In this document: piece by piece, positions 50,624-57,607 of the stretch | How positions within the stretch are numbered: position 1 is the first letter of the stretch | Layout of the letters: every line of letters begins with the position of its first letter | Assembly (NCBI RefSeq): GCF_009372255.1 | Contig: NZ_LXGN01000001.1 | Location: forward strand, 310,001 to 374,000 | Direction of reading: 5' to 3' | Length of the DNA stretch: 64,000 bases | From: Acinetobacter guerrae | Lineage (GTDB): Bacteria > Pseudomonadota > Gammaproteobacteria > Pseudomonadales > Moraxellaceae | Program-made: the position numbers and the translations under genes | Notes under the pieces: generated by a model | The model's input: the letters and a program-made list of their open reading frames with translations, nothing else | Databases searched by the model: none | Told to the model about the DNA's origin: nothing

Positions 50624-50663
50624 AAAAAAAGGAAAACCAGTCATATTGCTGTAATAGACTGGT
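50624..50663 (-). terminator. Intrinsic terminator of the mini unit
   Basis: On the minus strand ACCAGTC and GACTGGT arms with a 14-nt loop, followed by TTTTCCTTTTTTT. It directly abuts the stop codon of the 15-codon ORF and has the same stem as the adhesin terminator. Confidence 0.85.
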
Positions 50664-50711
50664 CTAAAATAACGCTGTTATTAGAATTTTATCATTATTA
50701 TAAAGTGACAT
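50664..50711 (-). CDS. 15-codon ORF of unknown status (small peptide or gene relic)
   Basis: The minus strand reads MSLYNNDKILITALF and stop. AAGGGAGAA stands right before the ATG; the Shine-Dalgarno core is closer than ideal. The ORF lies between a copy of the adhesin-promoter motif about 83 nt upstream and a terminator that starts at its stop. It could be a real leader peptide, the cover of a small RNA, or what remains of a deleted gene. It was too short for the ORF track. Confidence 0.35.
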   Translation of the reverse strand: MSLYNNDKILITALF

Positions 50712-50794
50712 TTCTCCCTTTAAACTTAAAGTGATAAGTTCTAATTAAAAACTAAAACTTAGATTCAATTTAAAGTGTTTTATATATGACGAAC

Positions 50795-50812
50795 ATCCCT
50801 GAAATTGGTGAT
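50795..50812 (-). promoter_or_regulatory. Copy of the adhesin-promoter motif upstream of the mini unit
   Basis: On the minus strand ATCACCAATTTCAGGGAT; the same 18-base site stands upstream of the adhesin gene with one change (ATCACTAATTTCAGGGAT). Confidence 0.65.
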
Positions 50813-50897: not shown

Positions 50898-53800
50898 TTA
50901 CCAACTAAAACCTACACCGACACCACCCGAACTTTCCTCTTTACTTAGTGCTCCGCTGATACTCAAACTGGTATTTTCATTAATCATACGTTGATAGCCT
51001 ACAGCAACAGCTTGTTCCGCACCTTGCAGACCAGCCCCAACCCCAATGCGGTTCTGCCCACGCAATCCAGCCGTACTGGTCGCCATATTCATCATGGCTG
51101 CACTCATCGCGCCCTGACGGTCAAAACGTTTGTCAACCTCTTGAAAACGGCGTTCTGTTTGCAGACTATAGTCCTTAAATGTACTCTCCAAACCCGCAAA
51201 ACGAGTATCTGTATAGCTGTTTGCGCTTGAAAGGGTTTCTGAACTTGATGTATTCATTTGCGCAACATTAACGGCATCTGTGTCTGCCGTACCTGCTGCC
51301 ACATGAGTAATTTGACGTTGATTGGTCGCAGAGCCTACAGATACCGTATTGTCTCGATCTGAACTTGAATTATTGCCCAACACTACAGCATTTTTAGCAT
51401 CTGTATTGACGTTATTACCTAACACAAAGGTATTATCACCTTTCACTGTATTGTCATTGCCTACAACATAACTGCCGTTGCCACTGATCGTATTTGGATC
51501 TCCAAAGGCTCCTGATCCATTGCCAGAAACAGTATTACCAACACCCACAGCGGTTGAGTTATTCCCTGTAACCACAGTGTTTGGTCCTATTGCTGTTGAG
51601 TTTTTACCAGTTGCATTTGAACTTGTACTTGCACCAGCGCCATTTCCCCCAATACTGATATATTGTCCTGCATCTGCTACTTTTTGATCAGTATAGGATT
51701 TAGCCGTATTTAAGGTCGATGCGGTTTGTTGGTCGGTATAAGTTTTGGCATCATTCAATGCAGTTGTGGTTTGTTGATCGGTGTAGCTTTTTGAGTCATT
51801 TAAAGATTGTGAGGTTTGTTGATCTGTATAAGATTTTGCATCATTGAGATTTTTGGCATCTTGTTGGTCAATATAAGATTTTGCATTTGCCAGTGTGCCT
51901 GAGCTTTGTGTATCCGTGTAGGTATTTGCATCGGATAAAGTTTTAGCATCTTGCTGATCAACATAATTTTTTAGGTTGCTCACAGAACCTTTTAATGCGG
52001 TTAATTCATTATTCACAGCACCAAAGGTGGCACCAATATTAGAATAACTTGTGCCCTGAATCGTAAAGGTCGGTAATGTAAATACGCCATTATTGAATCC
52101 CGCTCCGCCACCTAATACAGAAGCTAATTGATTTGCGCTACTACTAAACTGCGTTGATAATGTGCTGATATTTTGATTGGTCGTATAAAGCTGCCCACCC
52201 GTAACTGCATCTTTAGAATTGCTTGAACTGATATCACCCGCTTGTAGATTGGTGAGTTTTGTTCCGCTCTGGCCCGTCAAAGTAATTGTTTCTTTTGATG
52301 AATTGTCATAAACAACAGCATTAGCCGAAATATTACCCAAACCTGTTTGTAAGGCTGAAATATTATTGGTATTTGTGGTGATTTTGCCATCTAAAACCAA
52401 ATCCTTTTGATCTGCATAACTTTTTGCATCATTTAATGTATTAGACAAACCTGTCGTTAATGCACTTGTCGATGCCTTCGTATCCAAACCTGTCGTTGCA
52501 TCATTAACTTTGCTATTTAATGCATCAAATGTAGTTTTATCAGTTTTTAAAGCTAGACCATCAGTTAAATCAGACTGTGACGCTTTTGTAGCCAAACCAG
52601 TATCTACATAGCCTTTATTAGCAGCATCTGTTGCTTGAGTTGGTGTTGCAACATTGGTAATGCGTTTTTCAGCACCACTACGACCAACGGAAATAGTATT
52701 CGCTTCATTGGCTACGGAATCATGACCTATCGCAGTTGAACCATAAGCTGTAGCCTGACTACTACTACCGAAAACACTACTATAAATAGCGGATGCCGTA
52801 TTATTTGAACCTACGGCAGTGGAAACACCACCTATTGACTTGTTTGAAACACCTAGACTTGTGCTATTTACGCCTAGCGCCTGATTGTCATAGCCCACCG
52901 CACTACTTTGAACACCTAATGCAATATTATGTGAACCAACCGCAGCACTACGATCACCAAATGCCACGGAACCACCATTGCGAAGCGTGGTTTCAAAATC
53001 TGCTACTTGTTGTGAATTTACAGATGTATCACCAATTTTGGTAATAGATGCGGTCGTTAAATTTGTTGCCTCGACTTTAATGCCATTAATAGCAGTGAGC
53101 TTTGTCCCATCATCTTCTGCATTATAGTTTTGTCCACTGGCTGCCCCCACAACGGTTGAACCACTACCTTTTGCCAAGTTTTGTGAACCTGCGGCGAAGC
53201 TCCCTGTGCCATTTGCTTTATTATAAGTACCAACCGCATTACTTCCTTTTCCAGAAACAGTATTGCTAATCCCTAAGCCAGCACTTTCATCTTGAGTAAC
53301 ATTGTTATTAAAACCGATACCAGTACTAAACACACCATTTACAGTATTTTGACTACCAATTGCGTTGGAGAACATACCGTTTGCAGTATTACTTGATCCT
53401 ATTGCATTGCTTGAGCTACCTAATGCAGTGTTTGAATTACCAAATGCGCTACTAGAATCCCCTGACGCTGTGTTACTTCTACCTACCGCACTACTAGAAT
53501 CAGCCAATGCAATATTATTAGAACCAATGGCGCTACTTAAACTAGCCATTGCCCGATTATAATCACCAATAGCACTGCTCGCCTCACCATTTGTAGTATT
53601 ATCAGAGCCGAATGCGCTACTTTGCTTTCCTTGCGCTCTGTTGGAATCACCTACAGCGCTAGCAGACTCGCCTGATGCAATGTTTGAATTACCCACAGCA
53701 TTACTCGATTCACCAGATGCAGTATTCCAATACCCTAAAGCACTACTTCCATTAGCTTCGGTTAAATTAAATCGTCCGATTGCATTACTTGCCTCACCTA

Positions 53801-54857
53801 TTGCCGTATTTCCGTCGCCCATAGCACTGCTATATTTTCCTGAAGCTTTGTTAGACGACCCTATGGCATTACTTAATAAACCAGAAGCGATATTAGAGGA
53901 TCCCATGGAGGAGCTATAAGCACCAATTGCAATATTAGCGCCTTTTTTGGCAGCATTTTTAAAAGCAGCTACTTGAGTTGGATTTGTTATAAAATTGCCA
54001 TCAGGTAATGTAATTGACGTGATATCATCGATATTGTTTGTTGTTGCGGTAACTGTAATACCCGCGACACTTGTCAGTTGCGTCCCATTACTTTCTGAAT
54101 TATAAGCTGTACCGGATGCAGCACCTAAAGCAGTATCCGTTGAACTACGGGCATAGTTATCACTTGCCACTGCTGTTGGAATGGCTGCAATTGCAGTATC
54201 AACATAGCCTTTATTAGCTGCATCTGTTGCTTGAGTTGGGGTTGCAACATTAATAATTTGACGTTGCGTAGTCGTACTTCCAACCGAAAAACTGTTATTT
54301 CTATCCGCGATAGAATTTGCGCCAATGGCGACACTATTAATTCCACTCGCTTTTGCTTGATTACCAATAGCAACATTACCAATTCTTTTTGCAACAGCAT
54401 CTGTTCCGATCGCCACTCCGCTTACCGCCGCCGCCGCACCACCAATTGCCACAGCATGATCTAATGCCAGAGTGAGATTTGTACAATCCCCCCCAATTGC
54501 TATAGCACCATCAACAGGGTTTGAAAATCCAACAATTGCAGACATAGAGCCTGCAGAAGTTAACCCTAACTGACCATCTATATCTTCTATAAAGTCAGCA
54601 GCAGTAACAGAAGTAGGACAACTCACACCTTGAACAATATTCCCTGCCCAAACATTAGCACCGATAATGGTTGCAATACTTAAAACCAGAGTTTGCAAAC
54701 CAAATATCCGACGTTTACTTATATCTATAGTTAAAACCTCAGAACTAGCCATTGCCCCAGTGATATGATCGGTTTTCCCTGCACTTTTAGCATTTTCCGA
54801 AACCACCACCATCTGCCCCAGTGATTTATTCCAGATCAGTTTAAAAATCTTGTTCAT
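50898..54857 (-). CDS. Trimeric autotransporter adhesin (YadA-like)
   Basis: This 1319-residue protein is a type Vc autotransporter. It begins with an extended signal peptide region (MNKIFKLIWNKSLGQMVVVSE, an ESPR) and a hydrophobic core ending near NVWAGN. A large head of YadA-type repeats (AIGSSNTASG-like units) follows, with necks (ATDAANKGYVDT), coiled-coil stalk repeats (NDAKSYTDQQ) and a smaller second head near the C-terminus. The last 70 or so residues (FQEVDKRFDRQGAMSAAMMN to GVGVGFSW) are the YadA anchor. Three chains should form one fibre at the cell surface that binds host or abiotic surfaces. GGGGATGGACAT precedes the ATG. It is divergent from a two-component pair. Confidence 0.96.
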   Translation of the reverse strand: MNKIFKLIWNKSLGQMVVVSENAKSAGKTDHITGAMASSEVLTIDISKRRIFGLQTLVLSIATIIGANVWAGNIVQGVSCPTSVTAADFIEDIDGQLGLTSAGSMSAIVGFSNPVDGAIAIGGDCTNLTLALDHAVAIGGAAAAVSGVAIGTDAVAKRIGNVAIGNQAKASGINSVAIGANSIADRNNSFSVGSTTTQRQIINVATPTQATDAANKGYVDTAIAAIPTAVASDNYARSSTDTALGAASGTAYNSESNGTQLTSVAGITVTATTNNIDDITSITLPDGNFITNPTQVAAFKNAAKKGANIAIGAYSSSMGSSNIASGLLSNAIGSSNKASGKYSSAMGDGNTAIGEASNAIGRFNLTEANGSSALGYWNTASGESSNAVGNSNIASGESASAVGDSNRAQGKQSSAFGSDNTTNGEASSAIGDYNRAMASLSSAIGSNNIALADSSSAVGRSNTASGDSSSAFGNSNTALGSSSNAIGSSNTANGMFSNAIGSQNTVNGVFSTGIGFNNNVTQDESAGLGISNTVSGKGSNAVGTYNKANGTGSFAAGSQNLAKGSGSTVVGAASGQNYNAEDDGTKLTAINGIKVEATNLTTASITKIGDTSVNSQQVADFETTLRNGGSVAFGDRSAAVGSHNIALGVQSSAVGYDNQALGVNSTSLGVSNKSIGGVSTAVGSNNTASAIYSSVFGSSSQATAYGSTAIGHDSVANEANTISVGRSGAEKRITNVATPTQATDAANKGYVDTGLATKASQSDLTDGLALKTDKTTFDALNSKVNDATTGLDTKASTSALTTGLSNTLNDAKSYADQKDLVLDGKITTNTNNISALQTGLGNISANAVVYDNSSKETITLTGQSGTKLTNLQAGDISSSNSKDAVTGGQLYTTNQNISTLSTQFSSSANQLASVLGGGAGFNNGVFTLPTFTIQGTSYSNIGATFGAVNNELTALKGSVSNLKNYVDQQDAKTLSDANTYTDTQSSGTLANAKSYIDQQDAKNLNDAKSYTDQQTSQSLNDSKSYTDQQTTTALNDAKTYTDQQTASTLNTAKSYTDQKVADAGQYISIGGNGAGASTSSNATGKNSTAIGPNTVVTGNNSTAVGVGNTVSGNGSGAFGDPNTISGNGSYVVGNDNTVKGDNTFVLGNNVNTDAKNAVVLGNNSSSDRDNTVSVGSATNQRQITHVAAGTADTDAVNVAQMNTSSSETLSSANSYTDTRFAGLESTFKDYSLQTERRFQEVDKRFDRQGAMSAAMMNMATSTAGLRGQNRIGVGAGLQGAEQAVAVGYQRMINENTSLSISGALSKEESSGGVGVGFSW

Positions 54858-54924
54858 ATGTCCATCCCCGCCGATTATTTTGTGATTTAAATTTATGCAC
54901 TTATTATTTGAACATGATCACAAG

Positions 54925-54973
54925 TTTTCCAATATCCCTGAAATTAGTGATATTTTTGTTGTCTATTGGAAAA
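54925..54973. repeat. Inverted repeat in the adhesin/regulator divergent promoter
   Basis: TTTTCCAATA and TATTGGAAAA are perfect 10-bp arms with 29 nt between them. They interleave with the two CAGGGAT motif copies. Confidence 0.75.
54934..54951 (-). promoter_or_regulatory. Adhesin-promoter motif (candidate regulator site)
   Basis: On the minus strand ATCACTAATTTCAGGGAT, about 76 nt upstream of the adhesin start. It matches the site at 50795-50812 at 17 of 18 bases. Confidence 0.65.
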
Positions 54974-54975
54974 TA

Positions 54976-54990
54976 CCCAATCTCAGGGAT
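54976..54990 (+). promoter_or_regulatory. Third motif copy, upstream of the response regulator gene
   Basis: On the plus strand CCCAATCTCAGGGAT, 38 nt before the response regulator start, in the same relative orientation as at the other two units. TATAAA follows at once and could be the -10 element. Confidence 0.6.
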
Positions 54991-55028
54991 ATAAAAAGTA
55001 AAAAAATATTGGCAAATTAGGGGAAGAA

Positions 55029-55736
55029 ATGAATCTTTTGAGTAATGTAATGCTGGATCCAGACTTGGTTTTACCTGTACCCGTCATTGTGGTTGAGGAT
55101 GAACCACTCATTCAAAAAAGGCTAAAAGAAATATTATTAGGTATTGGCTATTTACCAGAAAATCTTATTTTTGCACAAACTTTAGCTCAAGCTCATGAAC
55201 AACTGAAACAACATTCTGCATCTTTGGCGTTGGTTGATTTAGGCTTACCTGATGGCAACGGTATAGATTTTATCAAACAACTAAAAATATATGACCCAAC
55301 CATCGCGATTTTAGTCATCTCGGCATGGAGTACGGAGGATGCGATTTTAAATGCACTGATAGCAGGTGCAACGGGCTATGTACTTAAAGAACGTGATGAT
55401 ATTGAAGTCGCCCTATCTATCCGTAGTATTTTACGTGGTGGCGCGCCTATCGACCCTTTTATCGCTCGTCAAATCTTAAAACAACTTCCTTCATCTAATG
55501 AACACATTGAGAAAAAAAATATTGAAAATGAGATAGATGACGCTTTACTTTCCAAACGTGAACATGAAATATTATTACTGGTTGCGCAAGGTTTAAGTAA
55601 TAAAGAAATTGCCAGCCAGATCAATTTGTCACGTTATACGGTTGAGTCTCATATCAAGCACATTTATCGGAAACTTGCAGTATGTACACGCATCAAGGCA
55701 GTCGATACTGCAAGATCACTTGGTTTGCTCGATTAA
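55029..55736 (+). CDS. LuxR/NarL-type response regulator
   Basis: This 235-residue protein has a receiver domain (VIVVEDEPLIQKRL with the acidic pair; LALVDLGLPDGNG with the phosphoacceptor Asp; YVLKERDD with the conserved Lys) and a C-terminal helix-turn-helix (LSKREHEILLLVAQGLSNKEIASQINLSRYTVESHIKHIYRKL) of the NarL/LuxR class. AGGGGAAGAA precedes the ATG. The cognate kinase gene overlaps its 3' end. It probably controls the divergent adhesin gene. Confidence 0.95.
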   Translation: MNLLSNVMLDPDLVLPVPVIVVEDEPLIQKRLKEILLGIGYLPENLIFAQTLAQAHEQLKQHSASLALVDLGLPDGNGIDFIKQLKIYDPTIAILVISAWSTEDAILNALIAGATGYVLKERDDIEVALSIRSILRGGAPIDPFIARQILKQLPSSNEHIEKKNIENEIDDALLSKREHEILLLVAQGLSNKEIASQINLSRYTVESHIKHIYRKLAVCTRIKAVDTARSLGLLD

Positions 55737-57607
55737 AATCTTTTTTTTCTTGCTGCTTATTTATGTTAGTTGGCAGTATTGCTCAAATTCATGCCTCATC
55801 ATTGAATGAATTGGTATTGCTCCCCAAAGACCATAACTGCCATGTCAATATCATCAATATTCAATCTATTCAAACCTCTCCAGACACCCAGATTAGCGAT
55901 ATAAATAAACTTACTAATTGGCAAACGGTAAAATTACCTGATTTTTGGGAAAATCGTTGGAAAAATTATTCTGGTATAGTTTGGTATCGCATTTTATGGT
56001 CAAAAGCCTGTCAAACTTCTCAGACTGAACCACTTGCCTTAAATATTGACAGTATCAATATGGCAGGAGAAGTTTATTTAAATAAACAATTGATTTGGCG
56101 CGATAAAAATCTGACCGAACCTTTAAGTCGTAGTTGGAATATGCCGCGCTATTGGGTTTTACCCAATTCAGAGCTTAAACAAGGTGAAAACGAATTTTTG
56201 ATTCGGGTTGTAGGCATCTCTACACAAAGTCCTGGTTTAGGCAAAGTTTATATTGGTACTCCACATGCGATTATTGAACAAAATTCAAAATATGTATTTG
56301 AACATCGCACGCTGTATTTTATTAATTTAGTTATTTCCCTAACGCTTGGTGCTATTGCTTTTCTAGTGTGGCTGCTGCGTAGAAAAGACTCAACCTTTGG
56401 TTGGTTTGCTTTGGCTTCTTTGCTATGGGGACTTTTTATTAGCAATATTTTAGCCACCGAAACTTATCCATTTTTATATACGCTGCAACTTGCTAAGATT
56501 AATATGTTGTTTCTAGTGGGTTATGTGATTTCTTTTACAATTTACACGTGGCGTTTTGCAGGGAAAAAATATAAAAAGATCGAAAATTTGCTTTGGCTAA
56601 CTGGCTTCATCGGTGGTGTAGGACTATTTATAGCACCGTCTTCGTACATAGGGCTTATTCTTTTTCTTCTCTTTTTGTTTGTAACCATTGTATTTTTAGC
56701 CTGCTGTATTTTTTATCAATGGATTGCTTATAAAACACCTAAAGCAGATATCCGTTTCCTTGCCCTAATTTTACTTGGTTTTATTGGGATCAATATCCAT
56801 GACGTTTATCTGATTTTGACTCAAAATACTGAACATACTTATATTACCCCTTTTGCAGCACCATTAACTGCATTAGCTATTTCTATGATATTGGCTTGGC
56901 GGATTGCACAAAACGTTAATCATATTGAAGAATTTAATCAAACATTGACACAAAGCGTAGAGCGAGTTAGCGCCGATTTAAAAAATTCTTTAGATAAAAA
57001 GCATCAACTTGAAATCGAAAATATGCGTTTGCAGGAACGGCTCAGCCTTTCTCATGAACTACATGATGGCTTAGGCGGCTCTTTGGTACGTTCCATGATT
57101 TTAGTCGATAAAAGTGATGATATTGATAAACAACATTTTTTATCAATTTTAAAACTTTTACGTAATGATTTACGCCAAGTCATCGACAGTGGCTCTACAA
57201 TTGGCGCAAAAGTTCCAGAATCACCCATTGTTTGGGCATCCTCAATTCGTAGGAGGTTTGTACAGCTTTTTGAAGAACTTGAAATTGAATCAAAATGGCA
57301 ATTGCCCAATCATTGGCTCACACAACCAACAGCCTTGCAATGCCTAACGCTTGCACGTGTCGCCGAAGAAGCATTGACCAATATTATTAAACACAGTCAT
57401 GCAACATTGGTTAAAGTCAGTTTATCTCAGGAAGATCAACAATTAATCCTTGAAATTGAAGATAATGGCATTGGTTTTGATCCACTTACTGTTCAAGAAG
57501 GCTTACATGTTGGCTTGCAAAGTATGCAGATCAGGGTTCATCGTATTGGGGGAAATTTTGAAATTTATTCTAAAACAGGACAAACCCTGATTCGAGTCAA
57601 ATTATAA
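55682..57607 (+). CDS. Sensor histidine kinase, 7TM with DISM-like extracellular domain
   Basis: This 641-residue protein has a signal-anchor (FFSCCLFMLVGSIAQIHASS), an extracellular domain of about 170 residues with a jelly-roll pattern (GIVWYRILW, VYLNKQLIWRD, ENEFLIRVVG), about seven membrane segments, a coiled coil, the HisKA_3 box LSHELHDGLGGSLVRS with the phosphoacceptor His, and an HATPase domain (AEEALTNIIKHSHA, EIEDNGIGFDP). The extracellular form resembles 7TMR-DISM domains that sense small ligands, perhaps carbohydrate. The gene starts inside the regulator gene (55-nt overlap); no other in-frame start gives a full signal segment. Confidence 0.9.
   Translation: MYTHQGSRYCKITWFARLKSFFSCCLFMLVGSIAQIHASSLNELVLLPKDHNCHVNIINIQSIQTSPDTQISDINKLTNWQTVKLPDFWENRWKNYSGIVWYRILWSKACQTSQTEPLALNIDSINMAGEVYLNKQLIWRDKNLTEPLSRSWNMPRYWVLPNSELKQGENEFLIRVVGISTQSPGLGKVYIGTPHAIIEQNSKYVFEHRTLYFINLVISLTLGAIAFLVWLLRRKDSTFGWFALASLLWGLFISNILATETYPFLYTLQLAKINMLFLVGYVISFTIYTWRFAGKKYKKIENLLWLTGFIGGVGLFIAPSSYIGLILFLLFLFVTIVFLACCIFYQWIAYKTPKADIRFLALILLGFIGINIHDVYLILTQNTEHTYITPFAAPLTALAISMILAWRIAQNVNHIEEFNQTLTQSVERVSADLKNSLDKKHQLEIENMRLQERLSLSHELHDGLGGSLVRSMILVDKSDDIDKQHFLSILKLLRNDLRQVIDSGSTIGAKVPESPIVWASSIRRRFVQLFEELEIESKWQLPNHWLTQPTALQCLTLARVAEEALTNIIKHSHATLVKVSLSQEDQQLILEIEDNGIGFDPLTVQEGLHVGLQSMQIRVHRIGGNFEIYSKTGQTLIRVKL

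Follow-up and report, generated by a model that had tools for sequence, protein, structure and literature searches.

The 171-bp region between a trimeric autotransporter adhesin gene and a divergently transcribed response-regulator gene carries two inverted sequence pairs, and the question raised by this locus is what they do. The sequence-only reading took them as nested parts of one operator that is shared by both promoters and able to switch the two genes at once. Both pairs are real and lie at the positions given for them: the 10-bp arms TTTTCCAATA and TATTGGAAAA form a perfect inverted repeat with a gap of 29 nt, and ATCCCTG at 54934-54940 is matched by CAGGGAT at 54984-54990 and interleaves with the arms. 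From the window (the whole 64-kb stretch of DNA analysed here) and its relatives, we consider it highly probable that each of the two divergent promoters instead has its own, independent site for the adjacent NarL-family regulator, part of an autoregulated two-component system that activates a surface-attachment regulon. The genes concerned are the following.

50898-54857, minus strand: trimeric autotransporter adhesin, 1319 aa, with ESPR, YadA head, stalk and anchor
55029-55736, plus strand: LuxR/NarL-type response regulator, receiver and GerE helix-turn-helix; start possibly Met8 at 55050
55682-57607, plus strand: histidine kinase, 641 aa, with a 7TMR-DISM sensor region and a NarX/UhpB-like catalytic domain

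The domains of the regulator (PF00072, 1e-18; PF00196, 2.9e-18) and of the adjoining kinase (PF02518 and 7TMR-DISM) are those of a NarL/LuxR-type two-component system. The regulator's nearest solved relatives are DevR, NarL and VraR, its receiver residues appear intact by eye (EDE, DLGLPD, SAWS, LKE), and phosphorylation-dependent DNA binding is putative. Its homologues align from Met8, and the seven extra codons of the longer frame vary at non-synonymous positions among close relatives. A search of the intergenic region against plasmids gave no match. The locus belongs to an Acinetobacter genome near that of A. ursingii.

Each member of the CAGGGAT pair turns out to be the 3' end of a complete 18-bp operator, TACCYAATTTCAGGGATA; the two copies stand head to head, 41 bp apart centre to centre, and a third lies beyond the adhesin gene. 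We recovered the motif as a recurring element upstream of regulator genes (loci L002-L069) and refined it to AAAATACCYAATTTCAGGGATAT from 59 sites, the window's included. The three operators and the two arms are laid out as follows.

50794-50811, minus strand: operator 3, TCACCAATTTCAGGGATG, lying between the terminator of the adhesin gene and a GST-like gene
54925-54934, no strand: left arm, TTTTCCAATA, of the inverted repeat first noticed; the proposed model works without it
54933-54950, minus strand: operator 1, TCACTAATTTCAGGGATA, facing the adhesin gene, conserved in L002-L004 and joint best weight-matrix match of the window
54964-54973, no strand: right arm, TATTGGAAAA; its AAAA forms the conserved flank upstream of operator 2
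54974-54991, plus strand: operator 2, TACCCAATCTCAGGGATA, facing the response-regulator gene, within a block that the four ursingii-clade loci share without change

With a non-circular weight matrix, trained only on regulator promoters outside the ursingii clade (28 distinct sites), these are the three top-scoring sites of the window (operator 1, 22.8; operator 3, 22.8; operator 2, 22.7), and none of 100 random Markov sequences of 64 kb reaches them, the maximum being 18.8. Once recognised as the end of an 18-bp motif, the CAGGGAT pair is therefore far beyond chance. The motif stands upstream of most orthologues of the regulator in Acinetobacter, Achromobacter, Rhodanobacter and Alcaligenaceae; the regulators of the A. 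lwoffii group have no clear site at their own promoter. The GGCAAATT block of the regulator promoter is also present in L012 and L015. One record in this comparison, labelled A. baumannii ACIN00150 (L005), has a locus very like that of A. guillouiae (L006), and its species label is possibly wrong.

How such a site might act is suggested by its distance from the promoter. Among 80 non-redundant sites, a -10-like hexamer begins 21 bp after the operator in 55 and 22 bp after it in 19 (74/80 together), while other spacings mostly account for 3-13 of the 80, with 17 at 11 bp. Because the -10 starts 21 bp past the site, the operator centre falls near -43, and the fixed 21-22 bp spacing points to an operator that replaces the -35 box; judged by these predicted -10 hexamers, the site overlaps -35 at a fixed distance from -10, as in class II activation. 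All three operators of the window are followed by such a hexamer at 21 bp.

50767-50772, minus strand: putative -10, TAAATT, of the operator-3 promoter
54906-54911, minus strand: putative -10, TCAAAT, of the adhesin promoter, with C rather than A at its second position, one base off the hexamer rule used in counting
55013-55018, plus strand: putative -10, CAAATT, of the regulator promoter, placed by the spacing rule of the 80 sites

A sigma-70 scan also proposed TTGGAA-18-AATAAT as the adhesin promoter, which we do not favour because its TTGGAA is lost in relatives.

We suggest a conformable chain of events, in which the 7TMR-DISM histidine kinase would phosphorylate the regulator, and a dimer of the phosphorylated protein would bind TACCYAATTTCAGGGATA through two NarL-like half-sites, TACCCAA and TATCCCT. 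Standing in for the -35 box, the bound operator would recruit RNA polymerase, so that operator 2 would drive the regulator-kinase operon in positive autoregulation and operator 1 the adhesin gene; the same regulator would also act on two other targets, a two-partner secretion (TPS) adhesin encoded elsewhere in the genome and a short transcript predicted beyond the adhesin gene. That it is this regulator that binds, that it activates, and to which signal it responds, we infer from sequence. The earlier idea of coordinated switching thus survives in altered form, since one phosphorylated protein would probably act at both promoters, in each case through a separate operator.

The main rival keeps the same sites and lets the regulator repress its own promoter while activating the adhesin, which we regard as unlikely. 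In the window, operator 2 is overlapped by a TTGGAA-17-TATAAA pair, and in the ursingii clade it would sit between the -35 and -10 (54990-54995) of such a putative promoter; the ATG at 55029, with its good Shine-Dalgarno sequence, suits the transcript start near 55002 that this promoter would give, while it lies only about 4 nt past the start predicted from the operator-spaced -10. Should translation really begin at 55029, autorepression from this overlapping promoter would be the main alternative to reckon with. Yet each of the three relatives has TCGGAA in place of TTGGAA but an unchanged operator, and a -10 at 21 bp is common to the regulator promoters of many species. The true start, moreover, may be Met8 at 55050, which gives an operator-to-start distance of 58 bp, as in L143 and L148. 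We accordingly retain activation from operator 2 as the preferred reading.

A second rival assigns the sites to a paralogous NarL-type regulator, the adjacent regulator gene being one target among others. Genome-wide scans by sequence patterns bear on this. The strict motif has 76 matches in 149 Acinetobacter genomes, and far fewer are found for a reversed control pattern. The regulator, present in 79/149 of these genomes, is found in 45 of the 48 with an intergenic motif and in 34 of the 101 without one (Fisher p 6e-13, an optimistic value because genomes share ancestry). We discounted, as probable chance matches, intragenic ones with weak flanks (L121, L122, L124, L125, L149, L151, L157) and those in L142 and L170. 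Several genomes do encode paralogues, some with a site at their own promoters (L118, L167, L176), which could share the sites. Against their being the sole users stand the single regulator match at E <= 1e-45 in the window's genome (G000) and the retention of the operator at the promoter of this very orthologue across two proteobacterial classes. We find it very unlikely that the neighbouring regulator is no more than a target, and continue with it as the probable binding protein.

The arms bring us back to the original proposal, in which they and the CAGGGAT pair jointly form one composite operator. The arms are perfect in the window and 8/10 complementary in the three closest relatives (L002, A. 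ursingii; L003; L004) by ungapped alignment, with one position co-varying from A-T in the window to G-C in the relatives, which is mild evidence in their favour. Among dinucleotide shuffles of the intergenic region, however, 3.3% yield perfect inverted arms of 10 bp or more separated by up to 60 (p 0.033), which makes the arms marginal as evidence on their own, and perfect pairing is absent from relatives in which the two blocks containing CAGGGAT vary little or not at all. The arms are centred at about 54949 and the operators at about 54962, and with dyad centres that differ in this way the two pairs do not make up a single symmetric site. Finally, other Acinetobacter that share the adhesin/regulator pair have their operators about 91 bp (L067), 1.3 kb (L148) and 4 kb (L143) apart; with a separation that ranges among species from the 41 bp of the window up to about 4 kb, each site serves its own promoter, and their closeness in the window is not required. 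An operator region between the divergent promoters has thus been borne out, as two separate sites, one per promoter, whereas we give very little credence to a single nested operator and leave the arms out of the model. Chance origin of the repeats, the intergenic region being AT-rich, is a fairly good account of the arms and next to inconceivable for the operators, given their enrichment over the reversed control, co-occurrence with the regulator, fixed -10 spacing and matrix scores.

The genes found behind the motif elsewhere share a theme with the window. In the window's own genome, the motif recurs 76 bp upstream of a 1513-aa ESPR/TPS adhesin, after which comes its TpsB. In other Acinetobacter, it precedes trimeric adhesins (L143 and L164 by Pfam, L148 by N-terminal similarity), a TPS adhesin (L161), fimbrial genes (L147; L014) and the regulator gene. 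When ESPR adhesins were chosen regardless of the motif, the site was found at 11 of 62 in regulator-positive genomes and at 0 of 28 in regulator-negative ones (Fisher p 0.015), with scores close to bimodal; only some ESPR adhesins of regulator-positive genomes thus carry it. The target pattern in Achromobacter is similar, with a site upstream of a 3103-aa ESPR/PATR autotransporter in Achromobacter pestifer.

Two small proteins were also seen beside the operator. A conserved 27-aa single-span membrane peptide, MDIYLIAVLFLLLIALLLGISMYKSRF with variants, lies about 70-100 nt past it (L116, L119, L120, L155, L165, L180, L185); the peptide occurs in 8/149 genomes, every copy found in the genus has the promoter site, and a search of the window's genome did not find it. 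In relatives of Pusillimonas, Yanghanlia and Comamonas (L193, L195, L196), a 110-aa secreted-looking protein is encoded upstream of the regulator with the operator facing its gene, and the L193 copy has no Pfam match.

Within the window, operator 3 heads a compact unit on the minus strand (50633-50811), situated between the adhesin and GST-like genes and consisting of the operator, its -10 and two further elements.

50664-50711, minus strand: 15-codon putative ORF, MSLYNNDKILITALF, within the short transcript predicted from operator 3
50633-50665, minus strand: terminator-like hairpin, GACCAGTC...GACTGGT followed by a T-run, ending the predicted transcript

Operator 3 is kept in L002/G115, where the putative ORF differs at 3 of 48 nt, and is absent in L003. 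There, one of two near-identical ACCAGTC terminators is left, as if the operator had been lost through recombination between them. An Rfam search of the operator-3 region returned nothing credible.

Several other loci hold candidate small RNAs behind the operator. One is an sRNA-like element beside thiE, with operator, -10 and a long hairpin (L123:4640-4830, L145:4470-4640, L171:4140-4320, and relatives); thiE itself is found in the window's genome. Its 17-pair stem shows changes on both sides in 12/17 pairs, a level of covariation matched by 0/500 shuffles, for a stem that was defined by hand from the antidiagonal and counted on the same alignment, and with a signal that sliding the register weakens strongly. 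RNAalifold predicted no pairs on the full alignment, probably owing to register errors, and Rfam searches of 12 loci holding sRNA candidates gave nothing credible and no family for the thiE-side element. Two further groups consist of short terminator-ended stretches behind the operator (L118, at its minus-strand site, L128, L159 and L163; L139 and L150), one beside a LysR-type gene and one in another intergenic region. In Achromobacter (L216, L217, L218), a short stretch behind the operator leads to a GC-rich hairpin and T-run, and such intergenic terminator-ended stretches, seen in several members of the genus, may be sRNAs.

Our literature searches for the motif, the operator and its regulon, a 7TMR-DISM kinase paired with an adhesin, and an Achromobacter equivalent found none, in a literature that took in few subscription journals. 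On balance we favour the view that Acinetobacter and Achromobacter relatives share a NarL-family system, autoregulated and so far undescribed, in which a single 18-bp class II operator, present three times in the window, would govern a regulon for surface attachment; the predicted regulon takes in trimeric, two-partner and classical autotransporter adhesins, fimbrial genes, the 27-aa membrane peptide and structured sRNAs unmatched in Rfam. One two-component system would in this way connect pili and small RNAs with type V adhesins, and for adhesin control in Acinetobacter it supplies a regulator, a binding site and a list of targets that can be tested.

Among known systems, BvgAS of Bordetella is among the closest parallels. 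BvgS is a hybrid kinase with periplasmic Venus-flytrap, receiver and HPt domains, whereas the 641-aa kinase here is a 7TMR-DISM membrane protein that shows only 7TMR-DISM and HATPase and lacks hybrid receiver domains. In the B. bronchiseptica cluster, as here, a LuxR/NarL-type regulator locus adjoins, and is divergent from, a large type V adhesin gene (PMC2225982), although the adhesin here is YadA-type and not FhaB, and the BvgAS regulon takes in adhesins along with sRNAs and other regulators (PMC7253368). The B. pertussis fhaB promoter carries a heptad inverted repeat at -88.5 and weaker sites down to -35 (PMC2225982), a multi-site array that contrasts with the single 18-bp site near -43. 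The logic of the proposed circuit agrees with that of both BvgAS and BfmSR, but because kinase architecture and operator differ, we file it as neither. The BfmSR system of Burkholderia thailandensis is unrelated to the OmpR-type BfmR of A. baumannii. In BfmSR-csu, a NarL/FixJ-family regulator activates its own expression along with that of a surface pilus in biofilm (PMC12124856). Pilus and regulator are thought to form one operon there, driven by a single promoter (Pcsu), in contrast to the two divergent promoters with an operator each that we propose. GacA, likewise a NarL-family regulator, has its site at the promoters of small structured RNAs, and the likeness to GacA-rsm extends to an operator at sRNA promoters, with a different operator and with a candidate sRNA that matches no Rfam family. 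The classical NarL operator is a pair of inverted TACYNMT heptamers arranged 7-2-7, whereas the halves here stand 4 bp apart (7-4-7) and the targets are adhesins rather than nitrate genes. Each half-site nevertheless matches the NarL/NarP heptamer consensus TACYYMT (PMC4886647) at 6/7 positions. The proposed circuit would resemble Bordetella BvgAS in its logic, reached with a different kinase and a different operator.
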